From the NCBI GenBank assembly GCA_030917395.1, contig JAUPUU010000080.1, positions 1 to 64,000 on the forward strand: a stretch of DNA of 64,000 nucleotides, read 5' to 3'. How positions within the stretch are numbered: position 1 is the stretch's first letter; the number at the start of each line of letters is the position of its first letter. Both the position numbers and the translations under genes were made by a program. This stretch comes from Cyanobacteriota bacterium erpe_2018_sw_21hr_WHONDRS-SW48-000092_B_bin.40. GTDB taxonomy: Bacteria; Cyanobacteriota; Vampirovibrionia; Obscuribacterales; Obscuribacteraceae. Of the stretch, positions 1,560-59,056 are shown piece by piece. The notes beneath the pieces are model-generated. The model saw nothing but the letters and a program-made list of their open reading frames with translations. It did no database searches and was not told the origin of the DNA.

Positions 1560-2288
1560 TCAATTACTGCTGGCACTTGAGCTAGCCGTTGCGATAGACG
1601 GAGAGCCCGGTTCGGGGCCATCAGAAACAAGCATGTAGCCGCGGTTTCGTACAGTCTTAATCAAGGTTCCTTCTGAAATACCCAGGCTACGACGCAGAAG
1701 TTTGAAGTGGGCCCTGACCGTATCAGTGGAGACCATGGCGTCATCAAGCCATACTCTCTCTAAAATCGCCTCGGCCGAAAATACTTGATTTTGATGGCGC
1801 ATCAGAAACTCCAAAAGGCTGTAAACCTTTGGCCTAAGCTTAATTTCAGCTCCATCAAGGGTGACGATGCAAGTGGCCGGGTCAAGAGTTATATTGCTGA
1901 CGGCTAAAACCGTGCTGGCGAGTGAACTGGGGCGACGCAACAGCGCTCGCACCCGAGCCTGCAGCTCACGGTGTTCAAAAGGCTTGGTCAGATAGTCGTC
2001 AGCGCCAGCATCTAGGCCCTGCTCTTTATCTTCAAGGCGGGTCTTAGCTGTAAGCATAAGAACCGGAATCTTGCCGCCAGCCTTACGATAGGTGATTAAG
2101 ACTTCAATGCCGGTCTTGTCAGGCATCATCCAGTCAAGAATGACCACGTCGTATTTATTCACGCGCAGACTTAAGAGAGCATCATCACCGTTAGAGGCGA
2201 TCTGAACCATATGGCCCTGACTTTCAAGACCAAATTTGGTCACTTCTGCCAGCGCCGAGTCGTCTTCTACTAGTAAGATTTTTGCCAT
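1560..2288 (-). CDS. OmpR/PhoB-family DNA-binding response regulator
   Basis: 242 residues from the ATG at 2288 (MAKILLVEDD); a longer in-frame GTG-type extension upstream adds nothing conserved. The receiver domain (about 1-120) has all key residues: acidic pair D9/D10, phosphoacceptor D52 in VVILDWMMP, T80 and K102 in TKPF. The C-terminal half (about 140-225) is a winged helix with the usual IKLRPKVYSLLEFLMRH and VRNRGYML elements, so it should act as a phosphorylation-controlled transcription factor. The last twenty residues are Ser/Ala-rich and probably disordered. It lies upstream of the thioredoxin-like gene and the truncated membrane sensor on the same strand, the likely cognate kinase. 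Confidence 0.92.
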   Translation of the reverse strand: MAKILLVEDDSALAEVTKFGLESQGHMVQIASNGDDALLSLRVNKYDVVILDWMMPDKTGIEVLITYRKAGGKIPVLMLTAKTRLEDKEQGLDAGADDYLTKPFEHRELQARVRALLRRPSSLASTVLAVSNITLDPATCIVTLDGAEIKLRPKVYSLLEFLMRHQNQVFSAEAILERVWLDDAMVSTDTVRAHFKLLRRSLGISEGTLIKTVRNRGYMLVSDGPEPGSPSIATASSSASSN

Positions 2289-2391
2289 TAGAATGTAGAT
2301 AATAGCAGTAAAATAGCTGCGGTCGTTCACTACATATTCACAGTGCAAGCGTAGTTTAAGTATGTGAGTGTGCCTTCAAGCGAGAGATATT

Positions 2392-3282: not shown

Positions 3283-3399
3283 AGCGAAATCTATGGCGAA
3301 TGCGAGGGCCACGGAGAGAGAGAGCCATGCGTAATAGCGAGAACATGCCCAAGGGCGAATTTCTGCAGAGAGCAGAATCTTAGAAACAATAGGTATTCC

Positions 3400-4503
3400 G
3401 TGGACAGCAACTGCGCCGGTAAAAATGAACAACTCCTCCTTTTCAAACGTGCCGTTGAATCTGTGCGCAACGGAATTTGTATAACCAATCCGCGCCTGCC
3501 AGACAATCCGATTGTCTATGTCAATGATGCCTTTTTAGAGATGACCACTTATCAAAGGCATCAGGTAGTTGGCCGCAACTGCCGATTTCTGCAGCGCGAC
3601 GACCGTGACCAGATTGCTATTGAAAATATCAGAGAAGCGATTCGCACAGAGCAGCCGATCACGACAATACTGCGCAACTACAGGCGCGATGGTTCTATCT
3701 TCTGGAATGAGTTGACGGTATCACCAGTGCACGACGAAAACGGTACATTGATCAATTTTGTCGGAGTACAAAACGATATTTCAGCCCGCAAAGAAGCAGA
3801 GAAAAGGGTTTCTGAATTTTATTCGGTAATCTCTCACGAACTGCGCACCCCACTCAGTTCCATTAATGGCGCCTTGAGTGTCATTGCCGATGGCTCGGCA
3901 GGAAAGGTCAACGCCCAGGTGATGCGCATGGTCAGCATCGCCCTAGAAAATTCTGAACGCTTGATTCGTTTGATTTCAGACATCTTAGATTGGAAGAAAA
4001 TTGAATCAGGGAAATTCAAACTGAACACCAGCAATATCAGCCCAGAACAATTGATCGATAGCGTGATAGCTGCGGTGAAGCCCCTGGCTTGCTCGGCTCA
4101 AGTCAATCTAAAAAAGGAAATTTCAACAGCGGCAGAACTGTCTGTCGACGTTGATAGAACCATGCAAGTGCTAACCAATCTTGTCGATAACGCCATCAAA
4201 TTCTCTCCAGTTAAGAGCACAGTTACTGTCAGTGCCGAACTACGCGGACTGGACACAGTAAGATTTTCAGTGGTTGATCAAGGCGAGGGGATTGCCCCTG
4301 ATCAATTAGACAAGTTGTTCAAAGTTTTTCAGCAGTTAGACTCTTCTGATAGCCGCAAGGCTGGCGGAACAGGTCTTGGTTTATCCATCAGTCGTTCACT
4401 AGTAGAATTGCACGGTGGGCAGATTGGCGTAGATAGTGTAGTGGGCAAAGGCAGTACTTTCTGGTTCGAGTTTTATACCGCAAACAGCAAAGTACACAGC
4501 TAA
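3400..4503 (+). CDS. LOV-domain histidine kinase (predicted blue-light sensor)
   Basis: 367 residues, GTG start at 3400, no membrane segments, so a soluble sensor. Residues about 14-130 form a LOV-type PAS domain. The flavin-adduct cysteine is C61 within GRNCRFLQ, and the flavin-contacting N93, N103 (FWNEL) and Q124 (FVGVQNDI) are all present. A DHp helix follows with SHELRTPLSS (phosphoacceptor H146), then a complete ATP-binding domain: N box TNLVDNAIKFS, DQGEGI, F box and GGTGLGLSIS. No output domain is fused, so a separate response regulator is needed; none is adjacent. Blue light should form a Cys-flavin adduct that changes kinase activity (family knowledge). The sigma factor gene follows 87 bases downstream on the same strand. 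Confidence 0.93.
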   Translation: MDSNCAGKNEQLLLFKRAVESVRNGICITNPRLPDNPIVYVNDAFLEMTTYQRHQVVGRNCRFLQRDDRDQIAIENIREAIRTEQPITTILRNYRRDGSIFWNELTVSPVHDENGTLINFVGVQNDISARKEAEKRVSEFYSVISHELRTPLSSINGALSVIADGSAGKVNAQVMRMVSIALENSERLIRLISDILDWKKIESGKFKLNTSNISPEQLIDSVIAAVKPLACSAQVNLKKEISTAAELSVDVDRTMQVLTNLVDNAIKFSPVKSTVTVSAELRGLDTVRFSVVDQGEGIAPDQLDKLFKVFQQLDSSDSRKAGGTGLGLSISRSLVELHGGQIGVDSVVGKGSTFWFEFYTANSKVHS

Positions 4504-4590: not shown

Positions 4591-5589
4591 ATGGTGAGCA
4601 AAATGAACGAATTAGACACATACATAGTTGATTTCCCGCCCAGCTTATATGACGGCGGAAGTTTAGAGTTGCTCGACAGAACAATGGCTCTGCCGTTAGA
4701 CGAAGACGAGGTCGAGGACGAAAAAGAATCGAAACAAGCCGAGAAAGATGCCCAAGCGGCAAGTGGAGAGCCAGCCCTATATGCTTACCTCCACAACATC
4801 GGCAAGACCAGCCTGATCAAGGCCAACGAAGAAATTGAGCTAGGTCGTGCCATTGCTAGCGGAGATGATGCGGCCTTATCTAAACTAGTAGTGAGCAATC
4901 TCAGATTAGTTGTTAGCATCGCTAAGCGCTTTCGTAACCAAGGCTTAGACATGGAAGACATGATTCAAGAAGGAAACTTGGGTCTAATTCATGCGGCGCG
5001 AAAATTTGACCCATCCATGGGTAACAGATTTTCGACATACGCCACCTGGTGGATACGTCAGGCCGTGATGCGGGCTATCGCTAACAAGGGTAGAAGCATT
5101 CGAATACCGGTTCATGTCAGAAGTCAGATTTCTCGAATCAAGCGCTATGCCAAAGAATTCCGCCAAAGTCATGGCCGCTTCCCCACAGAAGCTGAACTGT
5201 CGGTTGCCCTTGAGCTTCCACCAGAAGAGATAACTCGCCTTGTGACCAGCTCCAGCAGCATCGCCTCACTTGATGAAACCATGCCTGGTTCAGACAAGGA
5301 CACGATTGGCAGCTTTATCGAAGACCAGTTTTCAGCTCTACCTGAACGTATGGCTGAACAAACAATGCTGCGACGAGGTATCGACCGTCTAACTCGCTAT
5401 CTCAGTCCATTAGAGAAAACGGCAATCAGCTACCTCTATGGACTGGAAGGTGATGGCTTGTATGACTCGAAAATGGTAGCGGCAAAGCTCAACATTGACG
5501 TGGCTGAGTTGCGACGCATCCAAAAGCGCTCTTTGAAAAAGCTAAGACGGCACCTACACAACAAGTCTCTAAGTGACTTCATTTCTTAG
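4591..5589 (+). CDS. RNA polymerase sigma-70 family factor (group 2-like)
   Basis: 332 residues; a second in-frame ATG at 4603 is an alternative start. Region 1.2 is seen at ALYAYLHNIGKTSL, region 2 as NLRLVVSIAKRF, DMIQEGNLGL and the -10 recognition helix RFSTYATWWIRQAVMRAI. Region 3 follows at SIRIPVHVRSQ, and region 4 at LSPLEKTAISYLYGLEG with a helix-turn-helix near IQKRSLKKLRRHL. The first 55 residues are acidic and unlike region 1.1 of the housekeeping factor, and no long non-conserved insert is present. This fits an alternative, non-essential group 2 factor. A rho-independent terminator closes the unit. Confidence 0.9.
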   Translation: MVSKMNELDTYIVDFPPSLYDGGSLELLDRTMALPLDEDEVEDEKESKQAEKDAQAASGEPALYAYLHNIGKTSLIKANEEIELGRAIASGDDAALSKLVVSNLRLVVSIAKRFRNQGLDMEDMIQEGNLGLIHAARKFDPSMGNRFSTYATWWIRQAVMRAIANKGRSIRIPVHVRSQISRIKRYAKEFRQSHGRFPTEAELSVALELPPEEITRLVTSSSSIASLDETMPGSDKDTIGSFIEDQFSALPERMAEQTMLRRGIDRLTRYLSPLEKTAISYLYGLEGDGLYDSKMVAAKLNIDVAELRRIQKRSLKKLRRHLHNKSLSDFIS

Positions 5590-5604
5590 ATTTTATCTTG
5601 TCAT

Positions 5605-5637
5605 GAACAGGCGGTGAAAGACGTTCACCGCCTGTTC
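5605..5637 (+). terminator. Hairpin terminator after the sigma factor gene
   Basis: A perfect 14-bp inverted repeat, GAACAGGCGGTGAA and its complement, encloses a five-base loop AGACG, 16 bases after the sigma factor stop codon. The stem is GC-rich at its core. Only a short pyrimidine stretch (ACTCTTG) follows instead of a clean T-run, so termination may be partial. Confidence 0.75.
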
Positions 5638-5790
5638 ACTCTTGCCATCTAAGCTGTAAATGCCAACATTTAGGGGTCGAAATCAGAAGACTGACTTAAT
5701 TTCAGCTCTGTAAAGATATGTTTACTGTATGCACTATAGTCACTTTGCAGCATAGATAATAGGCTATCCCTAAGGAGTGCTCGTTTTTTT

Positions 5791-5895
5791 ATGACTCTCG
5801 CCAGTTTGGCCATTGTAGTCCTCGGCACAATAGTTTTTACCCTTATCAACGATTATCTGCCAGTTGGCGGAGATTACATCGAAGATAATCCGTAG
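5791..5895 (+). CDS. Small hydrophobic protein, 34 residues, single predicted membrane segment
   Basis: A short frame from ATG 5791 to TAG 5895 encodes MTLASLAIVVLGTIVFTLI followed by a polar acidic tail ending EDNP. The first 20 residues form one membrane-spanning helix. An AAGGAG sequence lies at 5772-5777, but the spacing of 13 bases to the ATG is longer than ideal and a T-run sits between. I do not recognise the family. It stands alone between the sigma factor terminator and the promoter of the next small gene. It could be a genuine membrane miniprotein or a chance frame; hydrophobicity and the upstream ribosome-binding-like site favour the former. Confidence 0.45.
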   Translation: MTLASLAIVVLGTIVFTLINDYLPVGGDYIEDNP

Positions 5896-5983
5896 CTTTC
5901 TTTTCTAACAAAATCGAATCGGACCTGCAAGTGACACCATATATGATGCAGGCGGTTTAGTTCATAGTTTAGTATATTTGCGC

Positions 5984-6013
5984 TTGACAGAGTTGTGCTT
6001 ATAACACTATGCT
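5984..6013 (+). promoter_or_regulatory. Sigma-70 type promoter upstream of the 62-residue protein gene
   Basis: A consensus -35 hexamer TTGACA at 5984-5989 is followed after 18 bases by TATGCT at 6008-6013 (four of six matches to TATAAT). Transcription would start near 6020 and give a leader of about 50 bases with a purine-rich ribosome-binding site at 6057-6067 in front of the ATG at 6074. Confidence 0.6.
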
Positions 6014-6073
6014 GTTTTCATGTGCCAGCTTAAATGACTGCACTTTCAAACCACGAAGGAAGAGAGGTGCCCC

Positions 6074-6262
6074 ATGGGACCATTCTATAAAACCAAACGA
6101 GCCGCCAGCACTACTTGTGCTGCCCGCCGGATTGGCACCTTCGCAGGGGAGAAGCTAGCGGTGAACAACTTCTCGGTCGAGAAACTTGTGAACGGCAAAA
6201 GTTTCAATCTCTTGAAAGCAGCGAAAAATCAGGGCGTAGTGCCGGATAGCGCAATCAATTAA
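6074..6262 (+). CDS. Small basic protein of unknown function (62 residues)
   Basis: The frame begins at ATG 6074 after a strong AGGAAGAGAGG ribosome-binding site at 6057-6067 and a recognisable promoter at 5984-6013, so expression is well supported. The product is basic in its first third (KTKRAAS, CAARR) and contains the phrase EKLAVNNFSVEKLVNGKSF, a short repeat of the pattern EKL-V-N. There is no signal peptide or membrane helix. I do not recognise a family. It is followed by 337 bases without a gene, so it is probably monocistronic. Confidence 0.6.
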   Translation: MGPFYKTKRAASTTCAARRIGTFAGEKLAVNNFSVEKLVNGKSFNLLKAAKNQGVVPDSAIN

Positions 6263-6599
6263 CCAGCTGAGCAAGCGGCAAGAGATCAACATAAGAAGGC
6301 CAGAACAAGAGACGTTTCTGACTAGTCTGACAATCTAGTTTTGATGCCAAAACCCTCTGAATTCAACCTTATAAGGTAGTGCATACCGATTGAACCATGA
6401 GCATTTTGTATTGCTCACCGGTTAAATGGAACGCCTATAACTTCTCATCAATGCACCATATACGGTGCAACAGCTTTGCTGCGACCAAATACTGGTCGAG
6501 TAAATATTAGCCGAATAAAAATTGGCCGAGCCACTTAGATTTTCCACCCGTCTATTTCAAAGCTCATCACCGTTGAGCCATAAAAAGGAGGAACCCCAA
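6263..6599 (+). other. Gene-free stretch rich in small inverted repeats
   Basis: No coding frame with a ribosome-binding site is visible here. The stretch holds five compact palindromes or hairpins: ACCTTATAAGGT at 6366-6377 (perfect 12-bp palindrome), TGAGCA/TGCTCA around 6398-6417 with flanking AACC/GGTT, TGCACC/GGTGCA at 6452-6469, CGACCA/TGGTCG at 6482-6498, and GCTCA/TGAGC at 6562-6578. Their number in about 215 bases suggests a folded leader or small RNA in front of the 88-residue protein and rtcB, or a set of operators. No terminator-like T-run was found. Confidence 0.4.
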
Positions 6600-6866
6600 A
6601 TGAGGTTCATGATCGAAGCAATAAACTCTCCACGTCCTATCCGGCGTTTCATTGTCGAACACATCTTCGTCAATGCCTACCGCCAATATGGTCGATGCCA
6701 TAGAGAATTGCGTGAGAGCGGGAACTCTGAACTCCTTTGCCAGCCAATAAGCAAAGGCAGGGAAATAGAAACCCGTGAAATTGATGACGGTGAGATTGAT
6801 GGCAGTCAAATTGATGGTAAAGATGTGCCGGCATTTCGAGCAAAGCCAAAAGCCCTTATAATTTAG
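6600..6866 (+). CDS. Small protein of unknown function upstream of rtcB (88 residues)
   Basis: The ATG at 6600 is preceded by an ideal Shine-Dalgarno AAGGAGG at 6585-6591, which decides the start against a longer in-frame GTG-type extension. The first half is basic and Arg-rich (PRPIRRFIVEHIF, AYRQYGRCHREL). The second half has a short acidic repeat built on the pattern E/Q-I-D-D/G (REIDDGEIDGSQIDGKD). There is no signal peptide or membrane helix. I do not recognise a family. The stop is 32 bases before rtcB on the same strand, so the two may share a transcript and a role in RNA repair, but this rests on position only. Confidence 0.6.
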   Translation: MRFMIEAINSPRPIRRFIVEHIFVNAYRQYGRCHRELRESGNSELLCQPISKGREIETREIDDGEIDGSQIDGKDVPAFRAKPKALII

Positions 6867-6898
6867 ACAACAAAAATATCAAACACAAAGAGAAACAA

Positions 6899-8158
6899 AT
6901 GAAAATCGAAAAAATTCACTACGATCCAAACGACCTGCCATACGAAGTAATTAGAATTCACGAGAAGAAACCAATCAAGGCTTGGGTCAAAGGTGTTGCA
7001 CTAGAAGCAGCAGCCTTACAGCAACTGATTAACTTGGCGTCAATGCCATTTATTCACAAGCACATCGCCGTGATGCCAGACGCTCACATGGGCAAAGGCA
7101 CCACAGTCGGTACTGTCATTCCAACTTTCAAGGCAATCATTCCGGCCGCAGTTGGTGTTGACTTAGGCTGCGGTATGATTGCCATGGCCACGACACTCAA
7201 GGCCACCGACCTGCCTGACAATTTGCGCCCAATAAGAGCAGCAATTGAAAAGGCCGTTCCTGTAGGTAAAGGTTTCTGGCACGATGACTTAGCCGCTAGC
7301 CATCCTGCCGCCAAGCCAATTAACAAGGCTTGGTCAACCTTGAGTGATAGATGGGATGTTATTGCTGCTAAGCACCCCAAAGTAGACGATGGTAACTACA
7401 GCCGCAACCGCTTGCAGCTTGGCACCCTTGGCTCGGGTAATCACTTCATCGAAATTTTGCTTGATGGAGCAGATAATGTCTGGCTGATGTTGCACTCAGG
7501 TAGTAGAGGAGTCGGTAACCGTATCGGTACTTACTTCATTGAACTGGCGCGCAAAGAGATGACGAGAAATCAAATCAATTTGCCTGACAGAGACCTGGCC
7601 TATCTTTCTGAGGGTGCCGATTACTTTGACGACTATCTCTATGCTGTTCAATGGGCACAAGACTATGCCTACTTAAACAGACAAGTGATGATGGGACAAG
7701 TAATTGAGGCTCTTAGACAGACAGGTGAACTACCTGAGTTTGAAGCCCAGCTGCAAGTGATCAACTGCCACCACAACTACGTGACCAAAGAGGATCACTT
7801 CGGTGAGACTGTTTGGGTAACCAGAAAGGGTGCAGTAAGGGCACAAGAAGGAGACTGGGGTATCATCCCCGGTTCTATGGGTGTGGGCTCTTACATCGTC
7901 AGAGGAAAAGGCAACCGCGAGAGCTTCAACAGCTGCTCTCACGGAGCTGGTCGAACTATGTCTCGTAGCCAGGCGAAAAAAGTGATATCGCTTGATCGTC
8001 ACGCTGCTGACACAGCTCATGTTGAATGCCGCAAAGATGAAGGCATTCTTGATGAGTCACCAGGCGCCTACAAGCCACTTGATGCAGTTATGGCGGCACA
8101 GGCCGATCTTGTTGAAATAGTTCACAAGCTAAGGCCGCTGGTCTGCGTTAAAGGGTAA
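6899..8158 (+). CDS. rtcB: RNA-splicing ligase RtcB
   Basis: 419 residues from ATG 6899. RtcB joins RNA ends carrying 2',3'-cyclic phosphate (or 3'-phosphate) to 5'-hydroxyl ends using GTP and Mn2+. All family signatures are present: MPDAHMGKG at 59-67, GVDLGCGM at 86-93 with metal-binding D88 and C91, GTLGSGNHFIE and LHSGSRGVGN with metal-binding His residues, NCHHNY, PGSMG, and CSHGAGRTMSR carrying the His that is guanylylated. The C-terminus has DESPGAYKPLD. Length fits the bacterial family. No archease or RtcA gene lies next to it. A hairpin terminator follows, so it ends its transcription unit. Confidence 0.97.
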   Translation: MKIEKIHYDPNDLPYEVIRIHEKKPIKAWVKGVALEAAALQQLINLASMPFIHKHIAVMPDAHMGKGTTVGTVIPTFKAIIPAAVGVDLGCGMIAMATTLKATDLPDNLRPIRAAIEKAVPVGKGFWHDDLAASHPAAKPINKAWSTLSDRWDVIAAKHPKVDDGNYSRNRLQLGTLGSGNHFIEILLDGADNVWLMLHSGSRGVGNRIGTYFIELARKEMTRNQINLPDRDLAYLSEGADYFDDYLYAVQWAQDYAYLNRQVMMGQVIEALRQTGELPEFEAQLQVINCHHNYVTKEDHFGETVWVTRKGAVRAQEGDWGIIPGSMGVGSYIVRGKGNRESFNSCSHGAGRTMSRSQAKKVISLDRHAADTAHVECRKDEGILDESPGAYKPLDAVMAAQADLVEIVHKLRPLVCVKG

Positions 8159-8318: not shown

Positions 8319-10244
8319 TTGGTTATTAGCATTTCTAGCAACAGAATCATTGACCAGCGCTACCAGATTGTCACCACAATCGGGCAGGGTGGCATGGGCA
8401 AAGTCTACCTGGTTGTTGACTTGGAGAAAAATAGACAAGTTGCCCTTAAGACTCTTGAGCACGACCTGAACGACCAAGCAGCTTGGGGACGTTTCGAACG
8501 TGAGGCGAGAAACGCCAGTAGACTGAACCATCCCAATATTGCCAGAGTTTATGATTTCGGCAAGCTCACTGGCGCAGTGCCTTATCTTGTAATGGAGCTA
8601 GTGACCGGTCAGACTCTGCACGAGCGGATTAAAACCAAAGGGCCCCTGGGCGAAGAAGAAACACTTACCGTTTTCCTCGCAATGTCTGCGGCACTGCAGC
8701 ATGCCCACCAAATGGATATTCTGCATCGTGATATTAAGCCATCCAACATCATTGTCATCACAGACCCGGTCGGCAAAATTGTCGATGCTAAGTTAATCGA
8801 CTTTGGCTTGGCCAAATGCTTTGGCGCAGATGAATTTGCCCAATCATTGACTGCCACCGGAGAGATTATCGGCAGCCCTTATTATATGAGCCCAGAACAC
8901 TGGAATAGTGAAGCTCTCGGGCCTGGCTCTGATATCTACTCTTTGGGAATCACACTATTCGAAACCCTCACAGGCAAAGTGCCTTTCTCTGGAGAAAATG
9001 CCTTCGCCACGGCAATTTCGCACAACACCGCAGATTTGCCGCTGCTGGCTAATTTCGATACCACTCTATTAGACGAAAGCGACTGGCAAATCGTACTTAA
9101 CAAAATGCTGGCCAAGTCTATCAATGATCGCTACAGCAGCGGCTCTCAGCTTGCCCATGACCTACATTGCATTGCCAATGGCGAAGCGGTCAACGAGCAG
9201 CTTGAAACAACAGAAATTAGCAGTCCGGGTAAAAGCTCAAAGCTAAACCAGATCTGGCTACTCGTGGGCGCCTCAGCCTTATTTCTCTTACTCACGAGCC
9301 TAGTCTCTCTCTACTTTTCTCTTACCAATAAACCAATGGCTCGGATGCCCAATCATCCCGATCTTTTTGACCGCATGCCCAGCCACGTAGATAGGGCAGC
9401 CGAGGCGAGGCCAAATTTTACTGTCTACAGACATAAAAAGCGCACGGTGTTTAAGTTTCCGCAGAAACAGAGCCTTGGCACTATGACAATCGGCAAAGGT
9501 TTTGTCGACGCAAAAGCAATGGGCAATATCGAAGTAATGCGCGACGAAGATATTCAATTTCGTCCCAATGAGCTCTTCTTAGCTCATCCCGAATTGTTCC
9601 AAAAGTTTGGTGCAAATGACCTAACTAGGCTTTTCATTCAAGGCGAGCCTACAGCGATTACCGACGAGATTTTGGCTAACATCAATCACCTCACTCGCCT
9701 AAAAACTCTAGTTCTGCGAAACTGCTATCTGACAGAAAAAGCTGTGGCAACTTTCAATTGTTTTCCACATCTAGACAACCTCACTCTCGTTGACACTGAA
9801 ATCAGCGGCGATGGCATTGCTAAATTCAGTCGGCTGCGGCAACTAGACACTCTAACAGCTAACGACGTCACAAATCCCAGCGTTTTCCTGACAAGGTTGA
9901 GCGGCCAATCGCAGCTACGCTCTCTTTCATTGAAAAATGCTGGCCTTAAAGATAACGATCTCAAACTAATTGCCCAGATAGCCAACCTGAGAGACCTGAC
10001 TATTGGCGGCAATCGAGACATCACCAACCAGGGCCTAGCCTATCTGGCTGACTGTAAAAAGCTGAGAAAGCTCCAAATAAAACATATTCCTATTAAGCCA
10101 GGATGCGCTGAGGTTCTTGCCAAAATTAAGGGGCTGACGCTGCTCATAGTGCCGACCCGGTCATTCAACGATGCCGAGGTGAGCGCGCTGCACCGGGCAC
10201 TGCCAGAGTGCAGAATTCATTTTGGTGAATCTGAGGGGGAATAG
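8319..10244 (+). CDS. Membrane Ser/Thr protein kinase with external leucine-rich-repeat region
   Basis: About 641 residues if the TTG at 8319 is used; the open frame reaches back to 8196, but that part overlaps the rtcB terminator and is not kinase-like. The N-terminal kinase domain is complete: GQGGMGKVY, VALK lysine, HRDIKPSN catalytic loop, DFGLAK, and GSPYYMSPEHW activation end. After a linker comes one membrane helix (IWLLVGASALFLLL). The roughly 320-residue outer part ends in degenerate leucine-rich repeats (TRLKTLVLRNCYLTEKAV, LRSLSLKNAGLKDNDLK, LRDLTIGGNRDITNQGL). Typical bacterial kinases of this layout carry PASTA or other sensors; here an LRR surface probably binds a protein or wall ligand. 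A purine-rich tract at 8301-8314 could be the ribosome-binding site. Confidence 0.9.
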   Translation: MVISISSNRIIDQRYQIVTTIGQGGMGKVYLVVDLEKNRQVALKTLEHDLNDQAAWGRFEREARNASRLNHPNIARVYDFGKLTGAVPYLVMELVTGQTLHERIKTKGPLGEEETLTVFLAMSAALQHAHQMDILHRDIKPSNIIVITDPVGKIVDAKLIDFGLAKCFGADEFAQSLTATGEIIGSPYYMSPEHWNSEALGPGSDIYSLGITLFETLTGKVPFSGENAFATAISHNTADLPLLANFDTTLLDESDWQIVLNKMLAKSINDRYSSGSQLAHDLHCIANGEAVNEQLETTEISSPGKSSKLNQIWLLVGASALFLLLTSLVSLYFSLTNKPMARMPNHPDLFDRMPSHVDRAAEARPNFTVYRHKKRTVFKFPQKQSLGTMTIGKGFVDAKAMGNIEVMRDEDIQFRPNELFLAHPELFQKFGANDLTRLFIQGEPTAITDEILANINHLTRLKTLVLRNCYLTEKAVATFNCFPHLDNLTLVDTEISGDGIAKFSRLRQLDTLTANDVTNPSVFLTRLSGQSQLRSLSLKNAGLKDNDLKLIAQIANLRDLTIGGNRDITNQGLAYLADCKKLRKLQIKHIPIKPGCAEVLAKIKGLTLLIVPTRSFNDAEVSALHRALPECRIHFGESEGE

Positions 10245-10267
10245 AGCCAACAGGGTTAGGTTTCCAG

Positions 10268-10297
10268 GTCAGCTCGAGTCAGCTTAAGTCAGTTTAA
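10268..10297. repeat. Three tandem 10-bp repeats
   Basis: The sequence GTCAGCTCGA, GTCAGCTTAA, GTCAGTTTAA occurs in direct tandem (unit GTCAGYTYRA), 24 bases after the kinase stop codon and about 90 bases before the next start. The spacing of one helical turn would suit a DNA-binding protein, but slippage is an equally simple explanation. Confidence 0.6.
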
Positions 10298-10383
10298 TAC
10301 CGTCACGTAATTTTCACGCTCCATCGAACAATAATGAATCTCCCCTTTCGATTCAGAGAAAGCACCCCTGGGAGACATTTACT

Positions 10384-11373
10384 ATGAGCCTCGAATCCGC
10401 TTCAGATACCGCGCCCCAAAAGCACAAGCCAGTTGAACGTGCCCATGAAGGCAATGACAATACAAAGAGCGCTGTGCATGACCAAGTTAATGGTCTTCCA
10501 GCCAAAGATCAATTGCCAGCCAAGCCAGATGTGGCTTCTGACAATGCGGCCATAGCAAAAATGGGTTTTCCCTCCCCTCTGTTACATGACACTGGTTTCG
10601 GTCAGCTCAAAGGCTCGCTCTTTATGAACGACCGCGATCGCAAACTGTTAGAAGGGCCGAAGAAAGAACTGGAAGCGCACCTAGGCGACACTCTCAATGA
10701 CCGTGTCGTTAAGACTGTGGCTAGCAACGAAGGTAAGTTCAATACAATAAACCTCAACGATGCTGGCCATGGCATCTCAGTTGGTGTCAGACAGTGGAAT
10801 CAAAAAGCTGGCGAGCTACCAGACTTACTCAAAAGCTTCCATGATAAAAACCCCGAAAAGTTCGACAAAATTTTTGGCAAATATGCCGATAATCTATTGA
10901 GCGAGAAATATGTCAGACGTACCAACATGGCTGGTAACAAAGACATGATGGGGCGAATGAAAGAAGCTCTAAACGATCCTGAGTTTCAAGAAGTACAAGT
11001 TGATAAATTCAAAAAATTCGCTGAAAAAACTGGAGAAATGGCCAAGAAATATGGCCTAAAGTCAGAGCTAGGAGCAGCACTGGTTGCAGATATAGCCAAT
11101 CAAATGGGAGAAGGCGGTGCTCGCCGCATCATGCGCCGGGCTGGCCTCAAACCCGGTGGTGAAGTCGAAGATGAAGCCGCAGTGCTAAAGAAAATGGAAA
11201 AACTAACTCACCGGCCCAATTCAAAAGCCCGCTTTGAAATGCTGGCAACAACCTTCAGCCCCGATAAAATAGATTCAAAAAGAAAACCAGCTACTAACCC
11301 AATTAGACAACGCGATAACAACAGCTCAACCTATGTGGCTGACCTCGATCTTTCACCAAGCAACGTCGCTTAG
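10384..11373 (+). CDS. Putative lysozyme-fold (GH46/chitosanase-like) protein
   Basis: 329 residues, ATG 10384, with GGGAGA as ribosome-binding site. The first 60 residues are polar and probably disordered. Residues about 105-240 show a pattern typical of the lysozyme superfamily: VASNEGKFNTINLND with a candidate catalytic E116 and D126, then GISVGVRQWNQKAGELPDLL as the small beta hairpin and helix, followed by Lys-rich helices and a closing VADIANQMGEGG segment. GH46 chitosanases and related muramidase-like effectors share this order; I infer a glycan-cleaving or glycan-binding role. There is no signal peptide, so a specialised export route or lysis would be needed to reach the wall. It stands alone between a kinase and convergent ppk1. 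Confidence 0.5.
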   Translation: MSLESASDTAPQKHKPVERAHEGNDNTKSAVHDQVNGLPAKDQLPAKPDVASDNAAIAKMGFPSPLLHDTGFGQLKGSLFMNDRDRKLLEGPKKELEAHLGDTLNDRVVKTVASNEGKFNTINLNDAGHGISVGVRQWNQKAGELPDLLKSFHDKNPEKFDKIFGKYADNLLSEKYVRRTNMAGNKDMMGRMKEALNDPEFQEVQVDKFKKFAEKTGEMAKKYGLKSELGAALVADIANQMGEGGARRIMRRAGLKPGGEVEDEAAVLKKMEKLTHRPNSKARFEMLATTFSPDKIDSKRKPATNPIRQRDNNSSTYVADLDLSPSNVA

Positions 11374-11394
11374 GCAGAAAATCTCACCAGGAAA

Positions 11395-13737
11395 TCAGCG
11401 CTTGTTGGTTTGATTGTTGGTCAAGAACCATTGCTGACAGCTTAGGCCTTGCTCACCAGTTTTAGGATGTAGCCTTAGGTAGCGACCATCGCTTTGCATG
11501 ATACGTGACTTGTTGGTATCAAACAAATAAGTCTTGAGCACAGCGTCGCGTACAAACCGGGCCAATCGTTCGTCTTCAATAGGGAAGAGCACTTCAACGC
11601 GACGATTCAAATTACGAGGCATCAAGTCGGCACTGCCACAGAATATTTCGTCTTTGCCACCATTGCGGAAATAATAAATGCGACTATGCTCAAGGAAGCG
11701 ACCAACCACACTAACTACCTGGATGTTCTCACTCACACCCGGTATCCCTGGGCGTAAGCAGCAAATTCCTCGCACAATTAGATCGACTTTTACGCCGGCC
11801 TGAGAAGCGCGATAGAGCAACTCAATAATGCGCTCATCAACAAGGGCATTCATTTTTAAAATGATGCGACCTTTGGCACCACTTTTAGCGTGTTCAATTT
11901 CTCTGAGAATGAGCTCTTCAAATCGCTCACGCAGATTGATTGGAGCAACCAACAATTTGCGGTAGTCACGCTTAGCCGAGTATCCAGTGAGATAGTTGAA
12001 TAGGTCAGAAATATCTGTACCAATTTTGTCATCACAAGTAAGCAAGCCAATATCAGTATAGAGATGGGCTGTCATCGGATTATAGTTACCAGTGCCAAGG
12101 TGCACATAACGGCGAATGCTGTCGCCTTCTTTACGCACTACCAGTGCCACCTTAGAGTGAATCTTCAAGCCAAGTAAGCCATAAACTACATGCACGCCTT
12201 CAGCTTCAAGAGCCTTCGCCCATTCAATATTGCTCTCTTCATCAAAGCGAGCCTTAAGCTCAACCAGCACGGCCACTTGCTTGCCACGCCCTTGCGCTTT
12301 TAGCAATGCTTCTACCACTGGAGAATTCTTGCCGACTCGATATAGAGTCATTTTAATAGCTAAGACATTAGGGTCACTAGCTGCAGCATTGAGGAAGCTT
12401 ACAACTGGCTGGAATGAATCATAGGGGTGATGGAAAAGAATGTTGCGCCGGGCAATCGCAGCGAAAATATCTTCGTCTTTATCCATGGTGTCTGGATCAA
12501 GAACGGCAGGTATTGCCGGAATGAATGGTGGATACTTAAGATCGTGCCGATCTAGATTGGCTACATACTTAAGCGAACTCAAAGGCATGCGCCCTTCAAT
12601 CAAATAGACATCGTAGGGTTCTATTTGAAGATTGCTCATCAAAATTTCAAGTATATAAGCGGGCATGGCATGGTGCACTTGTAAGCGAACCACGTCACCG
12701 AAGCGCCTCTGTCTAACACCTTCTTCTGTTGTTTCAAGCAGATCGCCAGCTTCCCACTCTTGAATTTCCATCTCTGCGTCACGGGTAACATGAAACGGAT
12801 AGACTTCAACAATAGACATGCCTGGGAATAGCTGCTCAATGTTAGCCTTGCACAAATCATCAAGCCAAATATAGGTATTGGGCTTGCACTGAATAACACT
12901 TGAACGCGCGCCTGGTGGCTCAGTTTTACCAATAGGAACTAACTGCGGCAAACTATCAGGAATCTTCACTCTAGCAAAACGCTCATCAGAAACCTGATCA
13001 CGAATCAATACAGCCAAATTGAGGCTGAGATTGGAAATGTGAGGGAACGGATGACCAGGGTCAAAGGCCAGAGGCGTGAGAACAGGAAAAATTTTCTTGC
13101 GGAAATATTCGCGTGCATCAGTCTTCTGCTCATCTGTCAGTTCATCGAACTGCAAAATTTGAATACCGGCCATTTTCAATTCGGGCAGAAGAGCTCCCTT
13201 CAAACAATCATGGGCGCTGGCAAGCAGTCGAGTCACTTCAGAACTAACAGCATCTAATTGCTCAGAAGGGCTGAGGCCATCAGGACCAGCACTCGGTGTG
13301 CCTGATTCAATTTGGCGCTTAAGTCCTGCGACTCTTACCATGAAAAACTCTTCTAAGTTTGAGCCCAGAATAGACAAGAAGCGGAAACGCTCTAACAGAG
13401 GGTTAGTTCCGTCCATGGCTTCTTCGAGTACGCGCCACTGGAAAGCCAGCAAACTCAATTCGCGATTGAGGTAATAAGCCGGGTCGGTAAGAAGAGGCTT
13501 GGCATCTTCAGGAGCATCAACCGGAGGCTGTTCTTGGGTAACACTAACCATGACATTGTCCGGCGGCAGGTCAAGGCGTGATGTGTCGGGCATGGCGAAA
13601 CCAGCGGGTGACGGCACAGGCACTGGTACGGGAACAGAAGGAATATCTTTCGCGCCTGCAGCGACAATCGCTTCAAGCGCCTCGGACCGTTTGATTTCGG
13701 TGGTTTTACGGCTATTTGCCGTGTCTGGTGATTGCAT
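11395..13737 (-). CDS. ppk1: Polyphosphate kinase Ppk1
   Basis: 780 residues. Ppk1 reversibly transfers the gamma phosphate of ATP to polyphosphate. The N domain begins at YYLNRELSLLAFQWRVLEEA. The two essential histidines are recognisable in GLKIHSKVALV and LEHSRIYYFRNGG, followed by CGSADLMPRNLNRRVEVLFPI. The enzyme is usually near 690-720 residues; here about 85 extra N-terminal residues are Pro/Val-rich (VPVPVPVPSP) and probably disordered. No Shine-Dalgarno precedes the first ATG, and the likely promoter places the transcript start at that codon, so either a leaderless message or a later start is possible. Polyphosphate storage is a hallmark of Obscuribacter-like organisms (family knowledge). 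Confidence 0.96.
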   Translation of the reverse strand: MQSPDTANSRKTTEIKRSEALEAIVAAGAKDIPSVPVPVPVPSPAGFAMPDTSRLDLPPDNVMVSVTQEQPPVDAPEDAKPLLTDPAYYLNRELSLLAFQWRVLEEAMDGTNPLLERFRFLSILGSNLEEFFMVRVAGLKRQIESGTPSAGPDGLSPSEQLDAVSSEVTRLLASAHDCLKGALLPELKMAGIQILQFDELTDEQKTDAREYFRKKIFPVLTPLAFDPGHPFPHISNLSLNLAVLIRDQVSDERFARVKIPDSLPQLVPIGKTEPPGARSSVIQCKPNTYIWLDDLCKANIEQLFPGMSIVEVYPFHVTRDAEMEIQEWEAGDLLETTEEGVRQRRFGDVVRLQVHHAMPAYILEILMSNLQIEPYDVYLIEGRMPLSSLKYVANLDRHDLKYPPFIPAIPAVLDPDTMDKDEDIFAAIARRNILFHHPYDSFQPVVSFLNAAASDPNVLAIKMTLYRVGKNSPVVEALLKAQGRGKQVAVLVELKARFDEESNIEWAKALEAEGVHVVYGLLGLKIHSKVALVVRKEGDSIRRYVHLGTGNYNPMTAHLYTDIGLLTCDDKIGTDISDLFNYLTGYSAKRDYRKLLVAPINLRERFEELILREIEHAKSGAKGRIILKMNALVDERIIELLYRASQAGVKVDLIVRGICCLRPGIPGVSENIQVVSVVGRFLEHSRIYYFRNGGKDEIFCGSADLMPRNLNRRVEVLFPIEDERLARFVRDAVLKTYLFDTNKSRIMQSDGRYLRLHPKTGEQGLSCQQWFLTNNQTNKR

Positions 13738-55361: not shown

Positions 55362-57200
55362 CTAAGCAAACGGCAACTGCAACCATAGCACCAGGCCTTG
55401 ATCTTCATGACTGGCACCACACTGACCGGCGAAGCTAAGTAGTAACGCTTTTGCCAGGGGCAGAGCTAATCCCAAATTTAGTGACCCCGCTTGAAATGGC
55501 TCAAAGAGCGACTCTATTTGCTGCTCTGCTATCTGCACACCTGAAATATGCAAAGCAATTCGAGCTACTTTATGGCCTCTATCAATATTTTCAGCGACTA
55601 CGCTGACATCGATAGGACTTCTAGTGCTCAGCCGTATAGCACTGACAAAGACCTTCGACAGTGCCTGCTTTAAGCGATCGCCATCGGCTAGCACCATCAT
55701 GGGGGTCTGACAGCCCTCAAAGAGAACACTGACACCTGATTCTTCGGCTAACTCAGAGCAAGATTCAATGGCGCTGTCGAGCAAGTCTTCAAGATTTGCA
55801 TTGGCCGAACGCATCTCTAGCTGGCCGGCCTTGAGCTTTTCTAAATCAAGCAAGTCGTTAATTAAAGTAATTAGCTCTTCTACTTGTTTCTCAGCCACCG
55901 TTGTTTCTGCCACAACCGCCGAGCTAAATTGACCATAGATTCCCAGAGGCAGCATGTGCAAAAAACCAGACACTGAAGTTAGCGGAGTGCGCAAGTCATG
56001 GCTGACCATAGCAACAAAAGCCTCTTTCATTTTTTCAATTTCGTGCTTTTCGCTGATATCTATCACGGTACCAAGCAGTGACACACTGTCATAAGAAACA
56101 TCACTGACCGAAAACTCAACAGGCAATTTTGAGCCATTCTTCTTCTGAGCCAAAAGCTCGATAGTGCCATCAATCATTGCCGTATCGGTGAGGGGCTCAG
56201 GCCTGATTCCGGCGGTCATGAATGAGCTGCCTAAGCTAGTTCCCTTTAGTTCGCCAGTTTTATAATCAAGCATGCGCTCTAGGGCCGGATTAGCATATTC
56301 AATTTTGGCTGATTCAACTCGAGCACGTTCAACTTGAGCAGATTCAGCCACCACCACCAGACCAATGGGCATCTGCTCAATGATATTTTGAATCTGATCG
56401 GTACTGGCTCGAAGCAGTTTCTCTTGACCCTGAAGAGAATGCGACATCTCATGAAAAGCCTCATCAATTGAAGCAATCTCATCCTCTCCAGCGATGGGTA
56501 CTCTAAGACTCTTGCGCTGACGCAAGCGCTCGGCATTGTCCTGTACGATTTCTAGACGCGAAGTAATACTGCGCAAGAACCAGCGCACCAGTAAAAATGC
56601 GACGACAACATTCAAGACCATCCCGCCGCCAAGCAGCCAGCTGGTGCGTTCTCTCTGTAACTTGATAGCAACCGGGCTGGCACTCTCAATTTGCTTTTCA
56701 GCATTGAGAAACTCAACTAAATCACCAGACAAAGTGAGCAGCTCCAAGCGCATCTTAGTTTTTAGCTTTAGACCAAACTGTGCCACGGCCAGTTCGCTAT
56801 CGGTTTCGCTGAGCTGCCTCATTCGCGCAAACATTTTCAAGTTGGCTGTAAGGTTATTTTCGATCTTCTCAAAGAGCTGATACTGCTTGCTACCGCTCTT
56901 CAACTGTTCCTTAATCCAATGGCTATTGCGCAATAGGGCTGAGCATTTAGCTTGATACACTCCCAGGGCATCCTGCTCCTTCTTCACGGAATACTTGGCC
57001 AAATTATCGCCAGCATCATAAAAATCCTGCAGCAGGGTACCGGCGGTTGCGACAATCTCTTTAGCATTCTGCTGTCTGACCGACTCTCGTTCTGCTGCTA
57101 CTAAGAGCGCGGCGTGACAGCCAACGAAAAGCAGCTCAAAGACAAGCAATAGGGCTATGACCAAAAAGCCTTTGACGCGAAGACTAAGAGAAGAAATCAT
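55362..57200 (-). CDS. Membrane histidine kinase with intact H box but degenerate ATP-binding domain
   Basis: 612 residues from ATG 57200, which overlaps the upstream kinase stop by ATGA and has GGGAGG four bases before it; this favours it over an in-frame start at 57236. Layout: membrane helix, helical outer domain, second helix (LLGGGMVLNVVVAFLLVRWFL), HAMP, PAS (about 275-395), DHp with SHDLRTPLTSV (phosphoacceptor His present), then a catalytic domain that has lost its key boxes. The N box reads KVFVSAIRLS (Asn lost), the G1 box ISGVQI instead of DxGxGI, and G2 SLNLGL. It should not bind ATP normally and would need phosphorylation in trans. Confidence 0.88.
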   Translation of the reverse strand: MISSLSLRVKGFLVIALLLVFELLFVGCHAALLVAAERESVRQQNAKEIVATAGTLLQDFYDAGDNLAKYSVKKEQDALGVYQAKCSALLRNSHWIKEQLKSGSKQYQLFEKIENNLTANLKMFARMRQLSETDSELAVAQFGLKLKTKMRLELLTLSGDLVEFLNAEKQIESASPVAIKLQRERTSWLLGGGMVLNVVVAFLLVRWFLRSITSRLEIVQDNAERLRQRKSLRVPIAGEDEIASIDEAFHEMSHSLQGQEKLLRASTDQIQNIIEQMPIGLVVVAESAQVERARVESAKIEYANPALERMLDYKTGELKGTSLGSSFMTAGIRPEPLTDTAMIDGTIELLAQKKNGSKLPVEFSVSDVSYDSVSLLGTVIDISEKHEIEKMKEAFVAMVSHDLRTPLTSVSGFLHMLPLGIYGQFSSAVVAETTVAEKQVEELITLINDLLDLEKLKAGQLEMRSANANLEDLLDSAIESCSELAEESGVSVLFEGCQTPMMVLADGDRLKQALSKVFVSAIRLSTRSPIDVSVVAENIDRGHKVARIALHISGVQIAEQQIESLFEPFQAGSLNLGLALPLAKALLLSFAGQCGASHEDQGLVLWLQLPFA

Positions 57201-59056
57201 CTTGCCTCCCCGGTCAATCGAGGCAATTTCAGCCAAAACACGCTACCTTTGCCCAGTTCGCTATTAACTCCTATCTGCCCCTGATGGGCTTCGACAATAG
57301 CTTTGCAAATTGCTAAGCCGAGGCCAGTGCCGCCTTTGGCCTGGCCATCAGCGATTTCAACCTGGCGATAGGCTTCAAAAATTGACTCTTGATGCGACTG
57401 GGGAATTCCCCGACCATGATCGATTACACCGATTTCTACATAACCAGGAGATTGTCTAGTGGCAATAGTCACCACAGAACCTGGCGGAGAAAACTTGATA
57501 GCATTCGAGAGTAAGTTAACCAGTACCTGCACAAGGCGATTGGCATCAACTAAAAGTTCTATCTGGCATGGTTCAACTTGCAGCTCTACCTGGTGCTTTT
57601 GAGCGAACATGCTTACGGCACTTACAGAGCGTTCAAAAATGATACTAAGACTGGCCAGCGCAGGCTCAATTTCAATTTTGCCTGTATCAAGGGTGTCAAG
57701 ATCGAAGAGATCGTTTAGCAATACTATCAAGCGTTCGATGTTCTGCTGCATCTGTTTTGTCGAATTTGCTGCCTTCGAAGAAACTGCCGCAGCCACTGGG
57801 CCAAGTTTAGTGAGGAATGCCCCAACTTTAGTCAATGGCTCCTCTAGTTCAGAGTGCACCATTGAGACAAAGTTTTGACGCATTTTCTTAATAGCATGCT
57901 TTTCGCTGGCATCAATAATCATGGCTAGAGTTTTGGGCTCTCCATCAATCTCCACAGCTGCCATCATGAAATCAACGGGAAATGGCTCACCATCGCGACG
58001 GAGAGCCGTAAATTCTAGGGCATGACCAACCTTACTATCAGCACCGTCAGCAGCTACAGAATCTGGTATGTCTTGACTAGGGGCAAAAAGCTTTGAGATA
58101 CGTTTGCCTAGAAGTTGATGGGAAGAATAATTGAAATCAGCTTCAAGAGTTGAATTCAAGAACTCAATGGTACCGTGATGATCAAGCATTGCTATGCCCA
58201 CCGGCAGTTTTTCAATCAGCTCTCTCACCCTGGCTTCGCTCGCCTTGAGCTGATTCATCTCTTCTCTCAGGGTACTGGCGGTTTCGTGGATAACCGCATC
58301 AACCAGCGCAATTTCATCGCTGCCCTTAAGTTGCGGCCTCAACTTGCGCCCGTCTTTCAGCCTGGCAATATTGTCATTAATAGCAGCCAAACGCGCGGTC
58401 ACACGACTAGAAAATAGATAGCCGATAAGAAGCACCACTAAAAATGTCAGCAACAGACCAAGAGCTAGAACTCCCTCTGTTTGTTCTCTAATTAAACGCT
58501 CGCGCTCAGGGCCTTCAGTCTCAAGCTTACGAGTAATAGCAAGCAACTGCGGAATGTCTTTAATCAGGGCGTCAAAAGTAGGCATAATCGAATGTCTCTT
58601 TGCCTGCCACTTTTCCCGCTCCGCTTCGTCTTCGAGAGAAGCTCGCTGGGCTTCCATAGCCGAAAGAACTGGTATGCAGATTTTGAAATTCTGCTCGATT
58701 CTCTCCAGTAATATTTGAGCTTCTTGATTGTCTTTTAATTGCTCCTTGAGCCAGGTAATAATTTCGAGCGATTCATCCATAGGAGCAGAAACACTGTCAG
58801 TGGTGCCAAGCTCTATGCTGCGGCTAACGCTCGTGACGTTATCGCCAGTATCAAAGCCGATGAGATAGAGTCGATTAGCTTTTGAGCTTATTAGGCGGGC
58901 CCGCTCTTGACGGCTAGCCTCGGCCTCAGCTTGCGAAAGGAGATAAGCTAGTGCGCCAATCAACACAAATTGACAGACAAGCAAAAGAGCAACCAATAAA
59001 ATGCCCTGAGTCGCCAGGCTCAAAGACGAGTGTCTAGATTTGGTTATAGACTTCAA
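57197..59056 (-). CDS. Membrane histidine kinase with intact ATP-binding domain but altered H box
   Basis: 619 residues, TTG start at 59056; no other start precedes the first membrane helix (GILLVALLLVCQFVLIGALAYLL). It has the same layout as the downstream kinase: two membrane helices around a helical outer domain, HAMP, PAS, DHp, catalytic domain. The catalytic domain is complete (N box VNLLSNAIKFS, G1 DHGRGIP, F box region, G2 GGTGLGLAICK). The H box reads MVHSELEEPL where SHxLRTPL is expected: Ser occupies the phosphoacceptor position, His is one residue early, and the Arg-Thr is Glu-Glu. It can probably bind ATP but not autophosphorylate in the usual way. Confidence 0.88.
   Translation of the reverse strand: MKSITKSRHSSLSLATQGILLVALLLVCQFVLIGALAYLLSQAEAEASRQERARLISSKANRLYLIGFDTGDNVTSVSRSIELGTTDSVSAPMDESLEIITWLKEQLKDNQEAQILLERIEQNFKICIPVLSAMEAQRASLEDEAEREKWQAKRHSIMPTFDALIKDIPQLLAITRKLETEGPERERLIREQTEGVLALGLLLTFLVVLLIGYLFSSRVTARLAAINDNIARLKDGRKLRPQLKGSDEIALVDAVIHETASTLREEMNQLKASEARVRELIEKLPVGIAMLDHHGTIEFLNSTLEADFNYSSHQLLGKRISKLFAPSQDIPDSVAADGADSKVGHALEFTALRRDGEPFPVDFMMAAVEIDGEPKTLAMIIDASEKHAIKKMRQNFVSMVHSELEEPLTKVGAFLTKLGPVAAAVSSKAANSTKQMQQNIERLIVLLNDLFDLDTLDTGKIEIEPALASLSIIFERSVSAVSMFAQKHQVELQVEPCQIELLVDANRLVQVLVNLLSNAIKFSPPGSVVTIATRQSPGYVEIGVIDHGRGIPQSHQESIFEAYRQVEIADGQAKGGTGLGLAICKAIVEAHQGQIGVNSELGKGSVFWLKLPRLTGEAR

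Follow-up and report, generated by a model that had tools for sequence, protein, structure and literature searches.

Two overlapping sensor kinase genes with reciprocal catalytic losses very probably encode one heteromeric histidine kinase in Obscuribacterales

Sensor kinases are textbook homodimers, yet the locus described here holds two overlapping kinase genes, each of which has lost what the other keeps. Could such genes encode a single enzyme? They lie in the window, i.e., the whole 64,000-nucleotide stretch of DNA that was analysed (positions 1 to 64,000 of contig JAUPUU010000080.1, Obscuribacteraceae). The first gene, P0002 (57197..59056, minus strand, TTG start), encodes a 619-aa membrane sensor kinase that lacks the phospho-His and retains an intact ATP-binding (CA) domain. 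The second, P0001 (55362..57200, minus strand), encodes a 612-aa membrane sensor kinase whose H box is canonical but whose ATP site is dead. Stop and start codons overlap as ATGA (57197..57200, minus strand), which makes translational coupling likely, and a Shine-Dalgarno-like GGGAGG precedes the second start at 57210-57205. Both reading frames and their overlap thus stand at the coordinates given in the original prediction. That the two are paralogues of similar domain order is borne out by their full-length identity of 31% and by their Pfam architectures: both contain PAS, HisKA, and HATPase_c, and HAMP was detected in P0001. Pfam found no Hpt or CheW domain in either protein, and the P1-P5 layout of CheA is absent.

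The aligned motifs read MVHSELEEPL / NLLSNAIKFS / DHGRGIP / GGTGLGL in P0002 and MVSHDLRTPL / KVFVSAIRLS / ISGVQIA / LNLGL in P0001. In the P0002 H box (HSELEEPL, 57833..57856, minus strand), Ser402 occupies the phospho-acceptor column, which is non-His in 15 of 15 orthologues, and Glu replaces the phosphatase residue T/N at +4. Its ATP site is fully preserved: N514 and N518 of the N box (57485..57517, minus strand) are invariant in 15 orthologues, as are D546, G548, and G550 of G1 (DHGRGIP, 57401..57421, minus strand) and the G2 box (GGTGLGL, 57314..57334, minus strand). P0001 is the converse. H401, R404, T405, and P406 of its H box (SHDLRTPL, 55980..56003, minus strand) are invariant in 14 orthologues, and the HD/ExxT phosphatase motif is invariant in the second proteins and lost in the first. 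Both Asn are gone from its N box (KVFVSAIRLS, 55626..55655, minus strand); the Asp of G1 (55527..55547, minus strand) is replaced by Ile and occurs in no orthologue; and the shortened G2/ATP lid (SLNLGL, 55467..55484, minus strand) has lost most of G2.

Pfam scores mirror these losses. For HATPase_c, P0002 reaches 97.6 bits and P0001 30.3 bits, both above the family cutoff; for HisKA, P0001 passes with 50.7 bits and P0002, at 15.3 bits, falls below the cutoff of 26.9, as expected with the H box lost. The homology of P0002 to HisKA kinases is accordingly based on its full-length alignment with P0001 and on the tree. Motifs and scores together confirm the reciprocal defects originally proposed, an upstream protein without phospho-His and a downstream protein without an ATP site. 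The predicted structure of P0001 keeps the full secondary-structure order of a CA domain (block pLDDT mostly 79-92), which points to a domain that folds although its site no longer works. Fold matches of the whole model are sensor kinases; over the catalytic region RetS ranks near the top, and the matches include RetS structures and the RetS-GacS co-complex 7n0e (PDB).

The same division of residues is found throughout the orthologous pairs, which number 15 in 12 genomes and four genera, mostly metagenome-assembled. Two pairs each occur in the window's own genome (G000), G007, and G005, and one each in G004, G006, G032, G033, G034, G029, G031, G012, and G014. Fourteen are complete; in the other own-genome pair, the second gene is truncated at a contig end, and a C-terminal fragment of the same second-gene type sits at the end of another own-genome contig, C190. 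In every pair, the first gene carries S, T, L, E, Q, or N in place of His together with a full set of ATP-site residues; the second retains the His, and its G1 Asp and the second Asn of its N box are gone. Invariant columns are likewise complementary: in second genes they cover the H-box stretch F395-V410, in first genes the CA motifs. With their own profile, second-gene orthologues reach 812-965 bits and the next kinase 571, so membership is clear-cut. Contig breaks aside, no unpaired orthologue was found. In a profile search of 289 genomes of the class, every match at E <= 1e-80 fell within the order, and every match in the 812-965-bit range within the one family. The defects thus co-occur in every orthologous pair, and a search for a pair with one complete member found none in the window-pair family.

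In the trees, first genes form one clade and second genes another, each with support of 100 and with mirrored branching. Both clades nest among single kinases that are complete, as are the nearest relatives without a partner. The closest of these single kinases (G036, G039, G041, G042, and G043) adjoin an OmpR-type regulator. The history is one tandem duplication and one reciprocal division, followed by inheritance as a unit, in agreement with the original proposal of duplication followed by complementary loss. The whole pair was later duplicated in genus g1, giving pairs 1 and 2. Purifying selection on the two genes is complementary: when the two closest genomes are compared pairwise (NG86), omega for the first gene comes to 0.28 in DHp and 0.04 in CA, and for the second to 0.06 in DHp and 0.21 in CA. 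Each gene keeps what its partner lost. With omega well under 1 throughout, pseudogene decay can be rejected for both genes.

The window pair is one of several. Its genome is rich in paralogous kinases (77 matches), and in a sample of 61 kinase modules, on which the base rate rests rather than on every kinase, seven lack the His and six lack the ATP site. All five close tandem pairs in this sample are reciprocal, an outcome reached in 0 of 200,000 label shuffles. Further adjacent reciprocal pairs of the own genome are on C261 (L244), C419 (L248), C319 (L273), and C441 (L257), the last as one polypeptide. Taken over all loci, the classification covers 41 distinct pairs, either adjacent or fused; 14 are intact/intact and 27 have a His-less member. 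Loci were partly picked as tandem or similar to the window proteins, so counts beyond the own genome should not be read as unbiased frequencies. In 27 of 27, the partner of the His-less member has the His, and the His-less member has six of six ATP-site features. None of the 41 pairs was doubly His-less, doubly ATP-dead, or ATP-dead with an intact partner.

Further reciprocal or half-reciprocal pairs, tandem or fused, are L132, L134, L135, L145, L269, L137, L151, L161/L266, L179, and L270; like L244, L248, L257, and L273, they are not related to the window pair. Partner ATP sites are graded, with six of six features in L137 and L179, five in L161, four in L270, and 0-3 in the others, which suggests that the His was lost first and the ATP site decayed second. 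The intermediates with one complete member (L137, L161, L179, and L270) belong to independently evolved pairs, and the loss of the His always comes first in them, which supports the route from duplication through complementary loss. Counting the better-placed cases only, there were at least six further origins: the fused clade, L137, L161/L266, L270, L244/L273, and L151. Within the fused clade, the reciprocal L132, L134, L135, L145, and L269 have double kinases with both halves intact (L263 and L264) as their sisters. L137 groups with intact fused kinases in the tree, and at L161, as at L270, the two genes are each other's sisters. The gene order is reversed in L244/L273 and L151, and both orders thus occur. 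On a CA-free tree, parsimony counts 16 changes among three states. The placement of L248, L257, L165, and L154 is unsure; because of their long branches, we do not count them firmly as separate origins.

Several individual loci merit description. L263 and L264 (G017) encode fused double kinases of ~1250-1330 aa with both halves intact, and L264 has three head to tail. L165 carries an ATP-dead kinase (5506-7677) and a His-less kinase (9940-12153) on the same strand, ~2.3 kb apart; they may be a reciprocal pair split by an insertion. L234 (G000:C150) is a His-less kinase whose ATP site is partly degenerate. The stretch examined around it contains no other kinase, so the His can also be lost where no partner is present. 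L256 (G000:C8) is an ATP-dead kinase that ends ~480 bases from a contig end, and no partner was seen.

Judged from these findings, the two window genes very probably specify a single membrane histidine kinase, an obligate heteromer and most simply a heterodimer, in which H401 is phosphorylated in trans. The upstream His-less protein would bind ATP and phosphorylate H401 of the downstream protein across the dimer interface, as in trans autophosphorylation, and the downstream protein would then hand the phosphate to a response regulator. The downstream protein may also be the phosphatase, since it alone keeps the full HD/ExxT motif. A His-less protein that keeps its CA domain beside a His-bearer that loses it is what trans chemistry predicts; in cis, the surviving sites could not react. 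In a mixed dimer, the partner's CA domain would have no target and be free to decay, which fits both the observed order, His loss and then loss of the ATP site, and its outcome. Translational coupling would hold the two subunits near 1:1. A heterodimer in which the first protein phosphorylates the second would be the simplest arrangement that uses the conserved parts of both.

Neighbouring genes offer candidate outputs. The early-branching pairs (G033, G012, and G014) have an OmpR-type regulator directly upstream, and pair 2 of genus g1 and the pairs of G032, G034, G029, and G031 are adjoined by a divergent receiver-winged helix-Ser/Thr kinase gene. The copy beside the sister pair in the own genome (L078:4402-6060; G000:C383:48404-50059) has visible phospho-Asp, HRD, and DFG motifs, and its kinase looks active. 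A second copy, 45% identical, lies ~13 kb off on the same contig. At L154, a regulator-Ser/Thr-kinase gene is directly upstream on the same strand, and at several loci one response regulator stands beside two kinases, which favours a joint enzyme. Neither an OmpR-type regulator nor a regulator-Ser/Thr-kinase gene adjoins the window pair. Its H-box helix (T-S-V-x-G-F-L-H-M-L) is nearly identical to that of the sister pair, so a shared output is possible, and our guess is that the window pair may use the same regulator-Ser/Thr-kinase. Elsewhere in the window, a PAS-containing kinase with a sub-cutoff match to YtvA/blue-light kinase families lies near a PhoB-like regulator (3283-4503, plus strand, and 1560-2375, minus strand).

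The lack of an adjacent regulator would also suit two proteins that form no joint kinase, the His-less one being a regulatory pseudokinase like DivL or RetS, and the ATP-dead one serving in phosphotransfer or as a phosphatase, with its phosphate coming from a different kinase or back from a regulator. DivL, which has CA motifs and no His, acts without kinase activity (PMC4211667), and RetS, which acts on GacS by direct contact, is represented among the P0001 fold matches, along with 7n0e. We nevertheless consider this reading unlikely. It leaves unexplained why paired defects arose in neighbours at least six further times and within fused chains. Nor does it account for the CA domain of the His-less protein, which has kept all of its ATP-contact residues and, at omega 0.04, ranks with the most constrained domains of the pair. 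There is still less reason to regard the upstream protein as a complete kinase with a substitute acceptor, either the His at -1 or a Ser/Thr in the acceptor column. The HS order in P0002 and the Ser or Thr of several orthologues invite that reading, but the column varies among S, T, L, E, Q, and N, constraint on DHp is relaxed (omega 0.28), and the T at +4 is mostly lost too. The adjacent His, raised earlier as a shifted acceptor, is found only in three "pair 1" orthologues, with Arg or Ser at -1 in all others, and we reject it as a displaced acceptor. Ordinary decay, with redundant paralogues drifting and the two defects functionally unlinked, would be plausible in a genome so rich in paralogous kinases, but it is hardly credible for pairs that are retained across four genera with omega far below 1 in every domain, a still-predicted P0001 CA fold, and a reciprocal pattern that none of the 200,000 shuffles reproduced.

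We thus return to the heteromeric kinase and to what it would mean beyond this locus. In this Obscuribacterales family, tandemly duplicated sensor kinases have probably evolved repeatedly into obligate asymmetric heteromers, some of them fused, through loss of the His and then decay of the ATP site, with some wired to a regulator-Ser/Thr-kinase fusion. The natural, recurrent series from intact tandem through intermediates to fully reciprocal pairs makes a homodimer-to-obligate-heterodimer route directly testable. Trans geometry is thereby predicted with genome data as the sole source. The fusion beside many pairs hints at a signalling bridge from His-Asp to Ser/Thr phosphorylation. If the proposal is true, these proteins are a whole class of natural half-of-sites receptors. 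According to theory, a phosphatase on the free acceptor subunit can yield switch-like responses (PMC3591291), and the Obscuribacterales pairs would be a natural test bed for this.

Comparison with known systems places the window pair among several partial likenesses. RetS and GacS are also two different sensor kinases in direct contact, as in the 7n0e co-complex. Their interaction is modulatory or inhibitory, the kinases are separately encoded, and the catalytic halves are not divided between them. DivL of Caulobacter resembles P0002 in keeping all ATP-site motifs while the phospho-His is replaced; it differs as a regulator without kinase activity, and the consulted parts of its description mention no reciprocally defective tandem partner (PMC4211667). 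In vitro, EnvZ H243A combined with a G2 (ATP-site) mutant undergoes trans phosphorylation in a mixed dimer (PMC4734776). That dimer likewise joins one subunit without the His to one without a working ATP site, but it was engineered from a single gene, whereas the window pair consists of two diverged natural genes conserved over genera. Titles and abstracts on heterodimeric or degenerate histidine kinases contained no report of the present arrangement, and the sole paper naming both Obscuribacter and histidine kinase concerned Vampirovibrio. The nearest precedent is the split kinase CheA3/CheA4 of Rhodobacter sphaeroides, in which neither protein works alone and the acceptor protein, CheA3, also has phosphatase activity (PMC3591291). 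There, too, ATP-binding and phospho-acceptor functions reside on two proteins, a division that the window pair reaches through residue-level losses, and the retention of HD/ExxT in the second protein suggests that its phosphatase, too, would stay with the acceptor. CheA3 and CheA4 are cytoplasmic members of the CheA family that lack whole domains, whereas the window proteins are HisKA membrane sensors that keep all domains and have lost only catalytic residues. The split kinase is therefore a known kind; what is new is its appearance as domain-complete, repeatedly evolved HisKA pairs.
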